Notes under the pieces: generated by a model
Seen by the model: only the letters and a program-made list of their open reading frames with translations
Told to the model about the DNA's origin: nothing
Databases searched by the model: none
DNA from: a virus
Reading direction: 5' to 3' (one strand)
DNA length: 64,000 nt
IMG/VR virus record: IMGVR_UViG_3300047322_000561
Coordinates: 1 to 64,000 of that record
In this document: positions 1,120-45,309 of the stretch, piece after piece
Layout: every line of letters begins with the position of its first letter
How positions within the stretch are numbered: position 1 is the first letter of the stretch
Program-made: the position numbers and the translations under genes

Positions 1120-1232
1120 CCCGTGCGGTGCTGTGAAAGCATCCGCGCCAGCGCTGCAGCTCTCACCCGTGAGCTGCCTGAGCGCGTGTTCTCAACGGGG
1201 ATACCGGCCTAGCCGGGGAGACGAGAGCCACC

Positions 1233-2081
1233 ATGCCCATGCCCATCAAGCACGCCCGCAGCCACGCGTACGCCGCCAGCGCCTTTCAGCGCGAGGTGTT
1301 CGACCCGCTGTGCATGCGCGAGCCTGTCGTCCGCAGCGCGACCGTCTGCGGCGCCCTGCCCTGGTTTGCGCTGCGCGACGTGCTGCGCTCGCCAGACCAC
1401 GACCCCGCAGGCGGCGGCAAAACCTTCTCGCAGGAGGAGGTCAATGCGATCGTCGGCGAGCGCGTCGGCAAGCTCAAGACGCAGCTGGACACGGCGACCG
1501 CAGCGCTGAGCGAGCTCGACAGCATCAAGGCCCGGCTGGCTGAGGCGGACGCAGCGCGCGAGGAGCAGCTCGAGCAAGAAAAGCTCAAGGGCAAGACCGA
1601 GCTCGAGAAGCTGCAGCACAACCTGCAGAAGTCGACCGAACAGCGCAAGCAGCTCGAGGCGGACTGGGCCGCGAAGGTCGCCGCCGCTGAGCAGGTCGCA
1701 GCCAAGGCAGCAGACGCGCACCGGGGCTACGTGCAGCGCCACCTGGTCTCGAGCGCGCTTGCAGACGCGGGCATTGCCAAGGGCGCGAGCAAGGCCGCGA
1801 CGCTCACGTTCCTGTCCGAGGCGCAGATCGAGCTCGACGACAACCTCGAGCCCAAGAGCGTCGCAGTCGGCGGCAAGAGCTTCGCGAAGCTCGCCGAGGC
1901 GGCCAAGCAGTACCTCGTCGACAACCCCTACTTCGCGGGCCGGAGCGACGGCGGCAGCGGCGCACCGCGCTCGCCGCTCGGCGGCAATGGCAGTCCGCAG
2001 ACCGTCGACCAGCACCCCAACATCGACAGCCTGCTCTCCGCAGGTCTCAGCGCACAAGCACAGGCCAAAAACTCTTCGTGA
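1233..2081 (+). CDS. Scaffold protein (GP20-like)
   Basis: 282 residues. The middle (about 75-175) is Glu/Lys/Gln/Ala-rich and predicted coiled coil, starting with KTFSQEEVNAIVGERVGKLK, the usual opening of phage GP20-type scaffold proteins. The C-terminal part has the frequent ..YLVDNPYF.. motif and a disordered Gly/Ser tail. Scaffolds guide procapsid assembly and are lost before DNA packaging. A purine-rich GGAGACGAGAG lies before the ATG; a second ATG two codons on is possible. It sits directly before the major capsid gene, with an inverted nuclease gene inserted between them. Confidence 0.8.
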   Translation: MPMPIKHARSHAYAASAFQREVFDPLCMREPVVRSATVCGALPWFALRDVLRSPDHDPAGGGKTFSQEEVNAIVGERVGKLKTQLDTATAALSELDSIKARLAEADAAREEQLEQEKLKGKTELEKLQHNLQKSTEQRKQLEADWAAKVAAAEQVAAKAADAHRGYVQRHLVSSALADAGIAKGASKAATLTFLSEAQIELDDNLEPKSVAVGGKSFAKLAEAAKQYLVDNPYFAGRSDGGSGAPRSPLGGNGSPQTVDQHPNIDSLLSAGLSAQAQAKNSS

Positions 2082-4007: not shown

Positions 4008-5201
4008 ATGGCACTCTCGCTAACCGACGTCCCGTATGAGCCAGCGACCCAGTACACGGATCGCTGGCTGTTCGTGCTCAGCGACGAGCTACAGGGCGAG
4101 CACGGCGGCACCTTCTTCGAGCTCGGCGTCGCGACACGCGAGGTCGACGTGCGCTGTCTGCGCAAGTTCATCTGCGCGCACCCGGTCGAGGGCGCGCGGC
4201 GCACCTTCGGCGAGCGCCTCGACCTCGGCGACTGCACCAAGCTCGGCAAGCCGCCCAAGCCGCCTGACCCTGGCGAAGGCGAAGAGGGCGGCGGCGAAGA
4301 GAGCGGCGAAGGCGAAGGCGAAGGCGAAGGCCCCATCGGCGGCACGCTGCCCACTGCGCCCGGCGTCGACAACGCCTTGCCAGGTGAACAGCCCGGCATC
4401 GACCACGAGCTACCTGGCGAGCGCCCTCCCATCGGCAGCACGCTGCCAGAGGGGCCGGCGATCGACAACGAGCTGCCGCGCCCTGGACTGCCGCCGCTGG
4501 GCAGCACGCTGCCAGAGGGGCCAGGCATCGACAACACGCTGCCGCGCCCTGAGCTACCTGACGAGCTGCCGCCGCTGGGCACGACGCTTCCGACGCGCCC
4601 TGGCGTCGACAACGAACTGCCCGGCGAGCAGCCCGGCATCGACAACGAGCTGCCGCCCGACCGTCCGCCCATCGGCGTGACGCTGCCCGAGGGGCCGCGC
4701 CCCGGCAACGAGCTGCCGCGTCCCGAGCTGCCGGACGAGCTGCCGCCGTTCGGCACGACGCTGCCCGAGCGGCCCGAGGGCGGCAACCTGCCAGCCATCC
4801 CCGAGGCTGGGCAAGAGCTACCGGGCGAGCAGCCCGGCATCGACAACGAGCTGCCGCCTGAGCTGCCGCCCATCGGCAGCACGCTGCCGGAGCGTCCTGG
4901 CATCGACAACGAACTGCCTCGTCCAGAGCTGCCCGACGAGCTGCCGCCCTTCGGAACGACGCTGCCCACCCGGCCTGGCGTCGACAACGAGCTCCCTGGC
5001 GAACAGCCGGACATCGACAACGAACTGCCGCCCGAGCCGCCTCCCATCGGCACGACGCTGCCGACGCGGCCAGGCATCGACAACGTGCTGCCCGAGCCTG
5101 AGCCGCCGCCTGCTGCTCGCGAGCGCGCGCCCATCCCGCCGCCGCCGAAGCCCAGCTGGAGCGAGAAGCTCACGGGCAAGGGCAAGGGCAAGAGCAAGTG
5201 A
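4008..5201 (+). CDS. Proline-rich tandem-repeat protein between capsid and connector
   Basis: 397 residues. The first ~80 (to GDCTKLG) look globular. Then come an acidic Gly/Glu linker and about 260 residues of imperfect repeats built on G-x-TLP-(x)2-PG-(I/V)-DNELP and GEQPGIDNELP units, ending in a Lys-rich tail. Position suggests a head-associated protein, perhaps a decoration or head-fibre protein displayed on the capsid, but no family is recognised. The repeat is acidic and likely disordered or polyproline-like. The stop overlaps the next start. Confidence 0.65.
   Translation: MALSLTDVPYEPATQYTDRWLFVLSDELQGEHGGTFFELGVATREVDVRCLRKFICAHPVEGARRTFGERLDLGDCTKLGKPPKPPDPGEGEEGGGEESGEGEGEGEGPIGGTLPTAPGVDNALPGEQPGIDHELPGERPPIGSTLPEGPAIDNELPRPGLPPLGSTLPEGPGIDNTLPRPELPDELPPLGTTLPTRPGVDNELPGEQPGIDNELPPDRPPIGVTLPEGPRPGNELPRPELPDELPPFGTTLPERPEGGNLPAIPEAGQELPGEQPGIDNELPPELPPIGSTLPERPGIDNELPRPELPDELPPFGTTLPTRPGVDNELPGEQPDIDNELPPEPPPIGTTLPTRPGIDNVLPEPEPPPAARERAPIPPPPKPSWSEKLTGKGKGKSK
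4332..5102 (+). repeat. Coding tandem repeats (PGIDNELP-type)
   Basis: About nine G-x-TLP units and four GEQPGIDNELP units alternate in a higher-order pattern with PELPDELPP spacers. DNA-level copies remain very similar, so array length could change by recombination. Such arrays often vary between related phages. Confidence 0.7.
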
Positions 5202-34837: not shown

Positions 34838-35085
34838 CAGCTTGTCTCCTCAGGTTGGCATACCTCGATCGGCTCGAGCTTCGCCCAGCGTCGAGCGCAG
34901 CGCGCGCACGTGACGAGCGGCGCCTCGTACTCTGACCAGCCTGCGCTGCGTCGGCCAGGCTTAGCGCCGCACAGCGCCGACCAGTTCGCGCCCTGCACTG
35001 CATGCGCGACCCTACCCGTGTCGCGCTCGGCGCCGTTGGCGCAGCGACCGAGCAGTCTACGAGGGGCGATTGCGTTCTTGACCAT
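34837..35085 (-). CDS. 82-residue zinc-ribbon-like protein
   Basis: Contains WSALCGAKPG and VTCARCARRW, a C...CxxC pattern seen in small phage proteins. Both ends overlap the neighbours in TGATG form, so it is coupled into the operon. No defined function. Confidence 0.6.
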   Translation of the reverse strand: MVKNAIAPRRLLGRCANGAERDTGRVAHAVQGANWSALCGAKPGRRSAGWSEYEAPLVTCARCARRWAKLEPIEVCQPEETS

Positions 35086-36035
35086 CAGCTTGCTTTCGCC
35101 TTCCGCGCCACGATCCGGCGCCCGAGCTCATGCACAGCAATGCACAGCTGCCCGTACCGGTCAGCGTCGCCCACGCTGCTGTCGCGCAGCCCGCGCAGCG
35201 TCGCGAACTGCAGCTCGAGCTCAGCGAGCGACCCCGGCGCCGGCGTGTCTGGCGCCGGCCTGATCGAGCGCAGCCCCGGCCCCGCCTTCGCCATCGTGCG
35301 CATCGTGCCGAGCACGTACCCGGCAGGGTTGGGAACCTGCGCGGCTGAGCGTCTGAGAAGCGCAGCGAGGGCGGGCGCAGCGACGTGCGCCAGCTGCTGC
35401 CCTTCCCGCTTCTGCAAGAGCTGCCAGACCTGGCCGTAGTGCGGCCAGCCCCAGCGCGCGCAGACGAGCTCGAGGGGGCTGCCACGCACGGGCTCTGGGA
35501 CATTCTCGGGCTCGGGAAATTTCAAACCTCTGCCAACAGCCGCGAGCGCAGCTCGGTCCTCGGGCGTCAGGTCATCCACAGGCGGGCAGTTATCCACAGG
35601 GCTCACGCGCGCAGCAACAGTCTCCTCTGGGATCTCTTTCTGTTGGTTGCTCACGACGCTGCGCCCCCTAGTCATCGTGACGTGGGCAGGCGCCAGGTCG
35701 ACGACGAGCTCGCGCTCGAGCGCTTCGAACGCAAGCACCGCGTACGAGTTCGCCGTCTGCGAGTGGTCCTCGTCCTCGCGGAAGCACGGCTTGCTCGCGA
35801 TGTAGCCGGCGCGCTCAAGGGCCTTGGTCGCGCGGTAGGACGTCGAGGGGCTGAACCCGCTGAGCTCGCCAAGGTCTGCATGCGAGACGACGGCGCCGCC
35901 CTCCCCGCCGTCGTCGAGCGCGTACAGGGTGATCAGCGCCATGCGCTCGGCAGCGCTCGAGCCGGGCGGCAGGTAGCCCCAGAGCTGTCGCAGCTGGGCT
36001 TTGAACAGGCGCTGCGCGCGCAGGCGCTCAGCCAT
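35085..36035 (-). CDS. Winged-helix replication-type protein
   Basis: 316 residues from the ATG before AERLRAQ. Residues ~28-98 form a winged-helix unit (RMALITLYALDD..., VSHADLGELSGFSPSTSYRATKALERAGYI). A Pro-rich linker follows, then a C-terminal helical part (VCARWGWPHYGQVWQLL, ..NPAGYVLGTMRTM..) like phage or plasmid initiators. A replication-initiation role is inferred. A second initiator-like gene is at 54472. A start further upstream would overlap the HNH gene. Confidence 0.55.
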   Translation of the reverse strand: MAERLRAQRLFKAQLRQLWGYLPPGSSAAERMALITLYALDDGGEGGAVVSHADLGELSGFSPSTSYRATKALERAGYIASKPCFREDEDHSQTANSYAVLAFEALERELVVDLAPAHVTMTRGRSVVSNQQKEIPEETVAARVSPVDNCPPVDDLTPEDRAALAAVGRGLKFPEPENVPEPVRGSPLELVCARWGWPHYGQVWQLLQKREGQQLAHVAAPALAALLRRSAAQVPNPAGYVLGTMRTMAKAGPGLRSIRPAPDTPAPGSLAELELQFATLRGLRDSSVGDADRYGQLCIAVHELGRRIVARKAKAS

Positions 36036-36624
36036 GGCGCGCCTCGACGATCTGCTCGAAGCGAGCAGCGTGCTCAAGCTCCACACATCTGAGCCGAGCG
36101 TGACAGTCCCGGCAGAGCGTGACTCCATTGCGGCGGTCGAGCGCGCGCTCAGGGTACGCAGCCTGCGGGTAGATGTGATGAGCTTCCAGCTCGCGCTGCG
36201 CACCGCAGTCTACGCAGCGATGGCCGTCGAGCTTGAACACGGCACGCTTCCAGCCCTTCAGCTTCGGAGTACGCCTTGGTGCTGCTCTCTCAGCAGAGCA
36301 CAGGCAAACGCCCTTGGCAGGTCGCTGCAGCAGACCTGTCATCTGCAGCGTGATGAGCGCCAGCTGCGTTTTCTCGTGGCTGATAGCGGCTTCGCGTTGG
36401 AGTTCTTGTTGCCACGCAGTCACGAGCGGGAAGCGGTCGCGTAGCGCGAGAAGCTCCGCAATGCGCAGAGCGTTAGCGTCGCTGGTCTTGGCCTTCACCT
36501 GTGCGAGCCACACTGCTCGGGTGTCGACCGCGATGCGGCGATCGGACGTAGCGCCAACTTGGGACGCGACAAATCCTTGCGCGGTGTGGTCGTCGCTGAT
36601 AGTTTCTGCGGGTCGAGGGCGCAC
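36028..36624 (-). CDS. HNH endonuclease with N-terminal helical region
   Basis: 198 residues. The C-terminal third is a clear HNH motif (RCVDCGAQRELEAHHIYPQA, RNGVTLCRDCHAR) with two CxxC zinc pairs. The N-terminal part is helical and helix-turn-helix-like (ITLQMTGLLQRPAKG). The GTG at 36624 is chosen because AGGAGG lies six bases upstream; a TTG five codons earlier is the alternative. First gene of the leftward operon, overlapping the replication-type gene by 8 bases. Either a homing nuclease or part of replication and packaging. Confidence 0.75.
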   Translation of the reverse strand: MRPRPAETISDDHTAQGFVASQVGATSDRRIAVDTRAVWLAQVKAKTSDANALRIAELLALRDRFPLVTAWQQELQREAAISHEKTQLALITLQMTGLLQRPAKGVCLCSAERAAPRRTPKLKGWKRAVFKLDGHRCVDCGAQRELEAHHIYPQAAYPERALDRRNGVTLCRDCHARLRCVELEHAARFEQIVEARHG

Positions 36625-37024
36625 GTCGCTCCTCCTCAAGCGCCTCGTTTTCCTCCTCTGCCGCCAAAGCGAAAAGGGAAACGGGGCGTTCGGCTTTTAA
36701 CGGTCTGGGTTCGGCGGCCGGGCAGCAGCAGCGCAGCGCGGTCACATGACGCGCATACAACGACCTCGTGCGGCAGGCGCCAAGTTTCTGTCAGACACGC
36801 CGCCGGAATCCGATTTCCAGCGCTCTTTTACAGCACGGCTGCGCGCGAAAGCGCACGCGGAGGCGATCCGTCTGCCGCGATAGGCGATCGCATCGCGTCG
36901 CAAGGAAGCGTGGCGATTGCGGCACGTTGCGAGCGCGTCGGCAGCTTTCTTGCGAACCTATTCCGGCTCCGGTATAGGTCGACGACGGCTCCATCCTGGA
37001 GCCTGAACGGAGCCAGTGGCCAGT
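36625..37024. promoter_or_regulatory. Divergent control region (400 bases, no gene)
   Basis: Separates the leftward operon from the partition operon. It holds a 14-mer GGCGATCGCATCGC (36883-36896) that also occurs at 52775-52788, a sigma-70-like promoter (-35 TTGCGA 36950-36955, 17-base gap, -10 TATAGG 36973-36978) reading toward parA, and the first iteron cluster. A leftward promoter is likely but none was clear. Confidence 0.5.
36950..36978 (+). promoter_or_regulatory. Promoter for the partition operon
   Basis: TTGCGA and TATAGG separated by 17 bases. One GGCTCC repeat lies in the spacer and the next near the expected start of transcription, so repressor binding there would block it, as in self-regulated type Ib partition operons. 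Confidence 0.5.
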
Positions 37025-37043
37025 ATGGAGCCAATGCAGAGCC
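36965..37043 (+). repeat. Partition-site candidate, iteron cluster 1
   Basis: GGCTCC at 36965 and 36987 and RGAGCC at 36998, 37009, 37027 and 37038. Steps are 22, 11, 11, 18 and 11 bases, so most are in phase with one helical turn. The 36987/36998 pair is an inverted repeat around ATCCT. It overlaps the promoter and the start of parA. Confidence 0.6.
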
Positions 37044-37792
37044 AAGGAGTCCCCGAGATATGGCTCGTGGGCGGAGACAAGGGCGGCGCGGGCAAGAGCA
37101 CCTTCGCAGCCATGATCGCGGCAGCCATCGGCACAGTGCGAAAGCAGCCCGTGACGATCATCGACACGGACGTGCTGACCAAGGACGTGAGCATGTGGCT
37201 GGGCACGCGCCTGCGCGACTGGCCGAACCTGCCGGCCATCGTCGGCAGGTTCGAGACCGAGGAGGTTGCGACGCGAGCTTGCGAGGAGCGGGACAAGGGG
37301 CGCTTCGTTGTCATCGATGTCGGCGGGCGCGACTCCGAGCAGATGCGCGTCGCGATGAGCGTGGCCGACGTGCTGCTCATGCCGATCCAGCCCAGCCAGT
37401 TTGACCTCTTCAGCTGCAAGCGCATGACCAAGCGCGTCGCTGAGGTCCGGCGTTGGAACCCCAAGCTGCGTGCCTGGTTCTTCATCAACCGCGCGGACAC
37501 CAAGGCTCAGCTCGCGCACCTGGCCGAGGAGGCGCACGAGCTCTGCAGCAGCTTCGGCCCCACCGTGCTCACGGCTGACGCCGTCATCCATCAGCGCGTT
37601 GGCTTCGCCTACGCAGCGCGCGACGGGCTCGGCATCCTCGAGGTCAAGAACGCGCACCAGGCCGCCGACGAGTTCTGGGCGCTCATGCTCGAGGTCGCCC
37701 CTGAGCTTGCTGAGCTCGACGACGCGCCGCTGCGTAGAGCCAACGTGAAGCCGATACAGAGCCACACTGGAGCCGAGGTAGAGCCGTCATGA
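37025..37792 (+). CDS. parA: ParA-family partition ATPase (type Ib-like)
   Basis: 255 residues with a deviant Walker A KGGAGKST (19-26), Walker B FVVIDVGG, and ..LLMPIQPSQFDLFS.., typical of the ParA/MinD family. There is no N-terminal helix-turn-helix, and the size fits type Ib (ParF-like). Its partner, a small RHH protein, overlaps its stop (ATGA). Partition ATPases move low-copy replicons, so a plasmid-like prophage is implied. ATG at 37025 is used; GTG 37016 or ATG 37034 are possible, and GGAG in the repeats makes the choice unsure. Confidence 0.85.
   Translation: MEPMQSQGVPEIWLVGGDKGGAGKSTFAAMIAAAIGTVRKQPVTIIDTDVLTKDVSMWLGTRLRDWPNLPAIVGRFETEEVATRACEERDKGRFVVIDVGGRDSEQMRVAMSVADVLLMPIQPSQFDLFSCKRMTKRVAEVRRWNPKLRAWFFINRADTKAQLAHLAEEAHELCSSFGPTVLTADAVIHQRVGFAYAARDGLGILEVKNAHQAADEFWALMLEVAPELAELDDAPLRRANVKPIQSHTGAEVEPS
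37736..37785 (+). repeat. Partition-site candidate, iteron cluster 2
   Basis: Five copies of RRAGCC at 37736, 37747 (GAAGCC), 37758, 37769 and 37780, each exactly 11 bases apart. They lie inside the last codons of parA. An 11-base period is not a multiple of three, so it is not a protein repeat. Confidence 0.65.
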
Positions 37793-38133
37793 CGCCAGCA
37801 CGCAAAGCCTTCCAGACAGAGGTAGAGCTGCCTTCCGAGGGCACACCGGAGTCGCTTGCGGAGTGGACGAGCGCTGCGCCTGAGTCGACGCGCAAGCCCA
37901 AGCTGACCCCGAAGCCGTGGGCGCGCTTCGACAAGCACGCAGAGTCGAAGATCACGTTCAACCTGCGGCTCAACGACTACGAGCGCGAGCTGCTCGACGC
38001 AGCCGCGAAGCTAGGCAGCCGCTCGATGCAGAGGGAAGCCAAGCGCATTCTCATCGCCGGCCTCGAGAAGGCACTGCGCGGAGCCAAAGCGGAGCCGTCT
38101 CAGAGCCACACCGGAGCCGAGGAGGAGCCGTGA
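37789..38133 (+). CDS. RHH centromere-binding protein (ParB/ParG-like)
   Basis: 114 residues. A flexible N-terminus (~1-45) precedes an RHH unit (SKITFNLRLNDYERELLDAAAKLGS, QREAKRILIAGLEKAL). This is the plan of type Ib partition partners, which bind repeats in and before the operon and help ParA. Its last residues are encoded by the third iteron cluster. The start overlaps the parA stop. Confidence 0.7.
   Translation: MTPARKAFQTEVELPSEGTPESLAEWTSAAPESTRKPKLTPKPWARFDKHAESKITFNLRLNDYERELLDAAAKLGSRSMQREAKRILIAGLEKALRGAKAEPSQSHTGAEEEP
38080..38129 (+). repeat. Partition-site candidate, iteron cluster 3
   Basis: Five copies of RGAGCC at 38080, 38091, 38102, 38113 and 38124, again exactly 11 bases apart, inside the 3' end of the RHH gene. 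The last 31 bases (38101-38131) match 37757-37787 in cluster 2 at 28 positions, so the block was duplicated or is under selection. Confidence 0.65.
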
Positions 38134-38390
38134 CGAGTAACAGGCTGTCTCGCTCTGCGCCGGACATCGACCTTGCGCGCGTGCGCGAGGTCGCGGCGCT
38201 CGCCAAGACCAAGAGCATCACCGGCGCGTGCGTCGAGTGCCGCGCCGAGCTCGCGCCGCGCGAGCGCTTTCTCGAGTGGGTCGTGCTCGAGCTGCTCGAG
38301 CAGCGCCCCGCAGACATGCTCGAGCGCCTGCGCGACCTGGCTGAGTTTCGATGCGTGGCGTGCAGCGCCAAGACGGGAAGGGGCGCCTGA
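38130..38390 (+). CDS. Small zinc-binding-like protein
   Basis: 86 residues from a GTG overlapping the RHH stop (GTGA). CVECRAEL and FRCVACSAK give two CxxC pairs around a helical core (LELLEQRPADMLERL). Probably a small zinc protein, function unknown, co-expressed with the partition pair. Confidence 0.55.
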   Translation: MTSNRLSRSAPDIDLARVREVAALAKTKSITGACVECRAELAPRERFLEWVVLELLEQRPADMLERLRDLAEFRCVACSAKTGRGA

Positions 38391-44244: not shown

Positions 44245-45309
44245 ATGAGCGATGAGCTAGTCCGGGTTGACACCGCCATGCAGCGCGCCTCGTTTGCTGC
44301 GCATGCCGAGCGCGCGCACGAGTTCGCCAAGCGCAGTCGCGCAGACAACACGCGCAGGGCGTACGAAGTGCAGTGGGAGCAGTTTGCAGACTGGTGCGCC
44401 GCGCAGGGGGTTGAGGCGCTGCCGTGTCAACCCCTGACGCTTGCCTCGTACATCGCCGCGCGCGCATTGGATCGCCGCGAGGATAAGCCCGTGCGCAAGG
44501 GGCGGACTGAGCGCGGCACCAAAGTCTTGTTCGCGACGCTCTCGCAAGCGCTCACGGCCATCAACAACAAGCACGTGGCGCACGGTTACGAGCGACCGCG
44601 CTCGTTCTTAGCCGTGCAGACGACGCTCGAGGGCATCAAGCGCACGCTCGGCATCGAGCCTACGCGCAAGGCGCCCGTGCTCGCCGAGACGCTCAGCAGA
44701 ATGGTCGAGGTGCTGCCTAATACGCTCGGCGGCGCGCGCGACCGGGCGCTGCTCCTGGTGGGATTTCTCGGCGCTTTTCGACGCTCTGAGCTTGTCTCGC
44801 TCGAGGTGTCAGACCTGACGTTTAGCAGGGCGGACGGACTCGTCGTGCGCTTGCGCAAGAGCAAGACCGACCAGCACAAGGTAGGTCGCTCCATTGCACT
44901 GGCAAAGCAGGTCGACGCGGACGTCTGCCCTATGCGCGCGACGCAAGCGTGGCTCGAGCGCGCAGGCATTGCTGACGGCCTCGTGTTTCGTAGCGTCGAC
45001 AGGCACGGCAACCTCGGCGCATCGCTCGGCGCCAAAGACGTCGCGCGCGTCGTCAAGCGCACCGCAGCTGCAGCCGGCATCGACACGGCAGACCTGGCCG
45101 GGCATTCGCTGCGCGCGGGACTCGCCACGGAGGCTGCCCAGCAGGGCGCGCGCGCGACTCAGATCATGAAACAGACCGGGCATACGAACGTCGAGATGGT
45201 CTCGCGCTACATACGCGAGGCCGAACTGTTCAAGGACAACGTCACGACAGGGATGATGAGGAGCGCTCGCCGGGCAGTCGAGAACAACGCAACCGGAGAG
45301 CGCACGTGA
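44245..45309 (+). CDS. Tyrosine recombinase (Cre-like)
   Basis: 354 residues with an N-terminal SAM-like binding domain (TRRAYEVQWEQFADWC) and a catalytic domain. The active-site set is present: Arg179 (FRRSEL), Lys207 (RKSKTDQ), His287 and Arg290 (GHSLRAG), His313 and Tyr322 (GHTNVEMVSRYI). Its plan and C-terminus resemble Cre-type recombinases that resolve dimers of phage-plasmids; integration of a prophage is the alternative. A strong AAGGAG precedes the ATG. The next gene overlaps by 4 bases. Confidence 0.85.
   Translation: MSDELVRVDTAMQRASFAAHAERAHEFAKRSRADNTRRAYEVQWEQFADWCAAQGVEALPCQPLTLASYIAARALDRREDKPVRKGRTERGTKVLFATLSQALTAINNKHVAHGYERPRSFLAVQTTLEGIKRTLGIEPTRKAPVLAETLSRMVEVLPNTLGGARDRALLLVGFLGAFRRSELVSLEVSDLTFSRADGLVVRLRKSKTDQHKVGRSIALAKQVDADVCPMRATQAWLERAGIADGLVFRSVDRHGNLGASLGAKDVARVVKRTAAAAGIDTADLAGHSLRAGLATEAAQQGARATQIMKQTGHTNVEMVSRYIREAELFKDNVTTGMMRSARRAVENNATGERT
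45203..45230 (+). repeat. Repeat shared by recombinase and following gene (copy 1)
   Basis: 28 bases in the codons for the recombinase catalytic Tyr helix, matched by 46216-46243 in the same codon phase with two differences. It marks a duplicated gene end. Confidence 0.6.

Follow-up and report, generated by a model that had tools for sequence, protein, structure and literature searches.

Three arrays of 11-bp-phased hexamers, two of them read through by genes, form a putative split centromere/operator in a phage ParA-RHH partition module

Results

A partition module with three phased repeat arrays

We describe in a tailed phage what is very probably (we put the probability at about 0.82) a type Ib-like partition module, in which an RHH protein would bind a putative centromere/operator split into three arrays of short phased repeats. 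The DNA analysed (64,000 nucleotides, hereafter the window) comprises positions 1 to 64,000 of the IMG/VR virus record IMGVR_UViG_3300047322_000561, i.e. nearly the whole of its 66,029 bp. Genes of a contractile-tailed phage are recognisable in it, encoding the major head protein, tail sheath, baseplate hub, portal and large terminase. A gene with degenerate internal tandem repeats (66- and 78-bp units) is also seen at 4008-5201; it is common to the relative phages, among which it is rearranged.

Sixteen RRAGCC hexamers lie in three clusters between positions 36965 and 38129. Cluster 1 (36965-37043), located before parA and the presumed operator and centromere segment, contains six sites, at 36965(-), 36987(-), 36998(+), 37009(+), 37027(+) and 37038(+), separated by steps of 22, 11, 11, 18 and 11 bp. 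Its first two sites, which read GGCTCC, are on the minus strand, a feature that the preliminary description of this DNA did not mention, and the cluster contains the inverted pair GGCTCC-N5-GGAGCC. Cluster 2 (37736-37785, plus strand) contains five sites, at 37736, 37747, 37758, 37769 and 37780, one of which is GAAGCC; it lies within the last codons of parA, immediately 5’ of the start codon of the RHH gene. Cluster 3 (38080-38129, plus strand), also of five sites, at 38080, 38091, 38102, 38113 and 38124, lies within the last codons of the RHH gene, immediately 5’ of the next start codon. All positions and steps previously claimed were re-found: the 11-bp step is exact in both clusters 2 and 3, and their ends (37757-37787 and 38101-38131) agree at 28 of 31 bases, differing at three positions.

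Taken singly, RRAGCC is rarer in the window than expected by chance (111 occurrences versus 166 expected). Pairs of RRAGCC spaced by 11 bp number 10 versus 0.16 expected, and none of 100 shuffles contained 10 or more. All ten pairs are at the partition locus, with no others across the 66,029-bp record. Scans for sigma-70 promoters and for terminators found none near the clusters, the sigma-70 consensus being possibly not that of the host. A weaker pair, TTGCGA-17-TATAGG, was seen by eye only at 36950-36978; if this were a promoter, the first site of cluster 1 would fall between its -35 and -10 elements.

The genes of the module

The parA gene (37016-37792, plus strand) encodes a ParF/MipZ-like deviant Walker-A ATPase. 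Its product matches Pfam MipZ (4.7e-11), CbiA and AAA_31 as well as the ParA family phrog_164 of PHROG (3.7e-30), and its best match in the PDB is ParF (4dzz). As in small ParA proteins, the Walker motif (GGDKGGAGKST) is near the N terminus, the protein is at most 258 residues long and there is no N-terminal DNA-binding domain. The start of the gene is uncertain, the candidates being GTG at 37016, ATG at 37025, ATG at 37034 and a non-standard ATA at 37058, and cluster 1 may therefore reach with its final one or two sites into the first parA codons. We observed at 37034-37060 that parA has no standard start codon that is well placed; of the candidates, the ATA at 37058 is best spaced from a Shine-Dalgarno sequence (AAGGAG) and nearly matches the starts of the homologues. 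At its other end, ParA extends 31 residues beyond the conserved C-terminal block, and this tail (37706-37789, plus strand) carries cluster 2; in most homologues the tail is shorter, the commonest lengths being 2-5 residues.

The start of the next gene (37789-38133, plus strand) overlaps the parA stop codon by four bases (ATGA). It encodes a putative RHH centromere-binding protein, ParB/ParG-like, immediately after parA as in type Ib systems, though its profile and Foldseek matches are individually weak. Its domain matches in Pfam all fell below the cut-offs, and a profile search gave weak matches to HP0222, MNT and Arc. In an AlphaFold2 model, two confidently predicted helices follow the expected strand region; the best Foldseek matches of this model are RHH proteins, with ParG further down, all at E-values above 0.1. 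The protein has only two plasmid matches, on a Candidatus Megaera plasmid and on Allochromatium pALVIN01, both encoded immediately after parA, and it aligns with many parA-following partners from plasmids, phages and genomes. It is on homology, context and helix prediction that the RHH fold is predicted here. Read-through of cluster 3 produces the C-terminal tail RGAKAEPSQSHTGAEEEP (38077-38130, plus strand), which is missing or shorter in homologues and modelled with low confidence. A third gene (38130-38390, plus strand) completes the apparent operon; its start overlaps the RHH stop codon (GTGA), and its product of 86 residues has two CxxC pairs and no family match in Pfam or PHROG.

DNA, not peptide, is constrained at the gene ends

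Selection on the two gene ends acts on the DNA and not on the peptide, because synonymous recoding never restored the phasing. The last 60 nucleotides of parA and the last 57 of the RHH gene were recoded using the phage’s own synonymous codon usage. All four phased pairs were recovered in none of 20,000 trials for either gene end (the maximum was three), and the recoded ends average 0.19 (parA) and 0.31 (RHH gene) phased pairs versus the four observed. The preliminary description had already dismissed protein repeats as the cause, on the grounds that 11 is not divisible by three. That argument is nearly right, but an 11-bp array regains frame every 33 bp, and therefore the ParA and RHH tails share the peptide QSHTGAE; it is the recoding that excludes a protein cause.

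The 11-bp rule recurs in the ParA-RHH family

The survey covered the window, two plasmids and 160 ParA loci taken from contigs of viral or cellular origin. We located the partner gene in each and reduced the set to 92 operons at less than 80% ParA identity. A small protein follows parA in nearly all of the homologues, and many of these proteins are recognisably of the RHH family described here. Identical hexamers 11 bp apart were found before parA in 30 of 91 operons, versus about 5 at other distances, and within parA in 2 of 91. A lag-11 test on the non-redundant operons was positive for 19 of 86 upstream regions, 13 of 88 junctions, 8 of 87 downstream regions and none of 88 parA bodies; counts at other lags were lower (11 upstream for lag 10). 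Thus, the 11-bp rule is enriched but not universal, holding in about a fifth to a third of operons at the stringency used. The hexamer itself varies by operon: GATATC, TGACTT/AAGTCA, GGTRCC and CTATCG were found, among others. As in type Ib systems, a short-repeat array precedes the operon, both in the window (the six sites of cluster 1) and, by enrichment, across the family. This recurrence favours the reading proposed from the window’s sequence at the outset, namely a ParA/RHH partition operon with phased repeats that probably serve as the centromere/operator bound by the RHH protein.

Single-sequence searches of viral contigs with ParA and with the RHH protein returned no direct relative of either. 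RGAGCC at 11-bp steps, a search of the kind proposed in the preliminary description, does occur in viral contigs, at 48 loci, none of which has a detectable ParA homologue. Matches of three copies are near chance by a rough estimate, and the arrays of 4-26 copies are other repeats, with the exception of L019. In that contig, an RHH-like gene (1209-1540, minus strand) lies beside a recombinase-like ORF, with no ParA neighbour detected, and has AGAGCC-type repeats at 11-bp steps immediately upstream. Two viral contigs, L022 (4189-4585) and L039 (5961-6159), have at their ends long arrays in which an 11-bp unit (about CTAGAGGGAGC) is repeated, the longest runs being 26 and 15 phased copies, respectively.

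Arrays meeting gene ends in other operons

The closest RHH homologue found (phmmer 9e-16) adjoins parA in L183, the Myxococcales MAG contig JAOUOP010000051. There, six sites precede parA (at -74, -63, -52, -41, -30 and -19) and ten follow the RHH stop codon (at +2, +13 and so on to +101), all at exact 11-bp steps. This locus thus shares with the window a ParA, an RHH protein, exact 11-bp arrays before parA and at the RHH end, and a GC-rich hexamer. It differs in the hexamer (GGTRCC versus RGAGCC) and in having no detected junction array. Its downstream array starts 2 bp past the RHH stop codon, whereas cluster 3 is inside the gene; by this comparison, cluster 3 appears to be the same kind of array as the downstream one of L183, but read through by the gene.

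Extra clusters in coding 3’ ends had been called unfamiliar. In the relatives surveyed, arrays elsewhere than upstream of the operon are common and lie in several places: in the parA-RHH gap (L130, L161, L165, L172 and L173), past the RHH stop codon or, in a small number of operons, across a gene end. In L115 the array extends 44 nucleotides into the end of parA, and in L125 and L153 less far; an 8-bp array crosses the parA stop codon in L199, and a repeat includes the stop codon of the RHH gene in both L237 and L222. Coding-embedded arrays are thus recurrent, and what is unusual in the window is that each of the two genes holds a complete phased array within its end. No second operon of this kind was found among the surveyed relatives, nor a published account of one in the open-access literature searched, which omits many papers.

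Different cassettes at one locus in relative phages

TerL relatives include the G001 contig, near-identical to the window, and a search with the HNH neighbour added no close relatives to the two phages G001 and G005. The G001 contig is interrupted between window positions 36602 and 43219 and does not cover the partition locus, so that its apparent lack of parA carries no information. G005 (63.7 kb) has roughly 70-85% nucleotide identity over the aligned parts, and its ParA cassette at this locus (L070:11478-12685, minus strand) is a different one, the partner of which is RHH-like by eye. Its repeats are 8-bp-phased; one set precedes parA and the other falls within the 5’ coding part of the partner gene (0 of 300 shuffles each). 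The cassette having been swapped in G005, different cassettes with coding-embedded phased repeats occupy one locus.

Discussion

In the reading that we favour, RHH dimers would bind the RRAGCC hexamers and, the 11-bp spacing being one helical turn, successive dimers would be placed on one face of the DNA. The resulting partition complex would be captured and moved by the nucleoid-bound ParA ATPase. Its sites would be distributed over three arrays, before parA, at the parA-RHH junction and at the RHH end, which may act jointly, and the array before parA would, by analogy, also repress the operon. Clusters 2 and 3 are wholly coding because both reading frames run through their array, adding the C-terminal tails. 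More tentatively, and with the odds rather against it, the coding arrays might be parts of one three-part centromere that double as intra-operon control: bound RHH protein would act as a roadblock setting the ratio of ParA, RHH and third protein, and the tails would only carry centromere DNA.

Known systems share several of these features. Known RHH centromere proteins recognise short repeats and act as repressors of their own operon (PMC5016525). The delta/omega/parS system of pSM19035 has, like the window, a small ParA, an RHH ParB and three arrays, each before a gene, with repeats in both orientations (PMC9499535, PMC5016525). Unlike the window, its repeats are contiguous 7-bp heptads and its promoters separate, and parS is described at promoters and not at gene ends. 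Full activation of ParA there needs at least four contiguous repeats (PMC9499535), compared with the five repeats of clusters 2 and 3 each. TP228 ParF/ParG/parH also has an RHH partner and repeats before the operon, and ParF is by sequence the closest solved ParA; its centromere, however, is upstream only (PMC5016525), and coding-embedded arrays are not described there. The parABS systems of mycobacteriophages RedRock and Miko are likewise phage-borne, and their direct repeats make up more than one parS locus, RedRock having parS-L and parS-R and Miko/Rachaly an additional parS locus (PMC7157519). They differ in that their repeats are of 8 bp and their loci are described as flanking or downstream of genes, and RedRock has no integrase. 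Archaeal (Sulfolobus) SegAB combines a ParA-like motor with an RHH protein, SegB, whose sites are mostly intragenic, some of them within segAB (PMC12284271), but it is chromosomal and its sites are palindromic and scattered instead of forming phased arrays. Thus, multiple phage parS loci, parS at several promoters and intragenic RHH sites, including those in segAB, are already published.

The parC region of plasmid R1, which belongs to a type II system, has five repeats per block. Its RHH protein ParR binds 11-bp direct repeats (PMC9426499) that are split into two blocks (PMC5016525), and the 11-bp step of the window would, as for ParR, place dimers on one face of the helix; the motor of R1, however, is the actin-like ParM, whereas the motor gene of the window encodes a Walker ATPase, not ParM, which sets it apart from the ParMRC type.

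Might the arrays serve only as operators? The RHH protein would then be an autorepressor, and the arrays would tune the expression of all three genes of the operon. Cluster 1 would overlap the promoter region; clusters 2 and 3 would have no centromere role and would work inside the operon, as roadblocks or operators ahead of the following start codon. Every array does immediately precede a start codon, the parS sites of pSM19035 overlap three promoters (PMC9499535, PMC5016525), and the L019 RHH-like gene has its upstream AGAGCC 11-bp repeats with no parA neighbour detected. Nevertheless, we consider this unlikely: in type Ib systems one stretch of DNA often serves as both operator and centromere, the largest array of L183 (10 sites) follows the last par gene and is better explained by a centromere, and the scan around the clusters gave no sigma-70-like promoter, albeit with a consensus that may not be the host’s.

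Far less probable still are two readings in which the RHH protein has no part. One would make the repeats replication-initiator iterons, i.e. an origin, bound by the nearby protein encoded at 35085-36203, which has winged-helix and weak replication-initiation matches. The 11-bp arrays, however, go together with the ParA-RHH module in a set of about 90 non-redundant operons, and the different ParA cassette of G005 comes with different, 8-bp repeats. The other, which we regard as just as improbable, holds that the tails are low-complexity sequence expanded fortuitously from a duplicated 11-bp unit and have no DNA-binding role. Clusters 2 and 3 are identical at 28 of their final 31 bp, spacers included, which does imply that one was probably copied from the other, but the hexamer is found again in the non-coding DNA upstream, where the spacers differ, the recoding test rules out a cause in the peptide, and homologues keep the phasing with other hexamers. 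We therefore retain the partition module with a split centromere/operator as the most probable reading.

Phage-plasmids are plasmid-like prophages with partition and replication genes, usually without an integrase. The preliminary description assigned the window to such an element. The partition module is present as it proposed, but phage-plasmid status is not established, as an apparently complete tyrosine integrase is also encoded (44245-45309), about 6 kb from the module; the replication-initiator match in the phage is weak. Given the integrase, plasmid-like maintenance may not be needed, and the phage may combine integration and partition functions. The partition module alone does not settle the lysogenic state.

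The module shows how a compact phage can hold a presumed multi-array centromere at no cost in space, its genes being read through the arrays. For the large and poorly studied ParA-RHH family, a testable rule emerges, in which the hexamer follows the RHH protein while the 11-bp spacing and the positions of the arrays are often kept. If true, this rule would allow RHH specificity and incompatibility to be predicted from the sequence.
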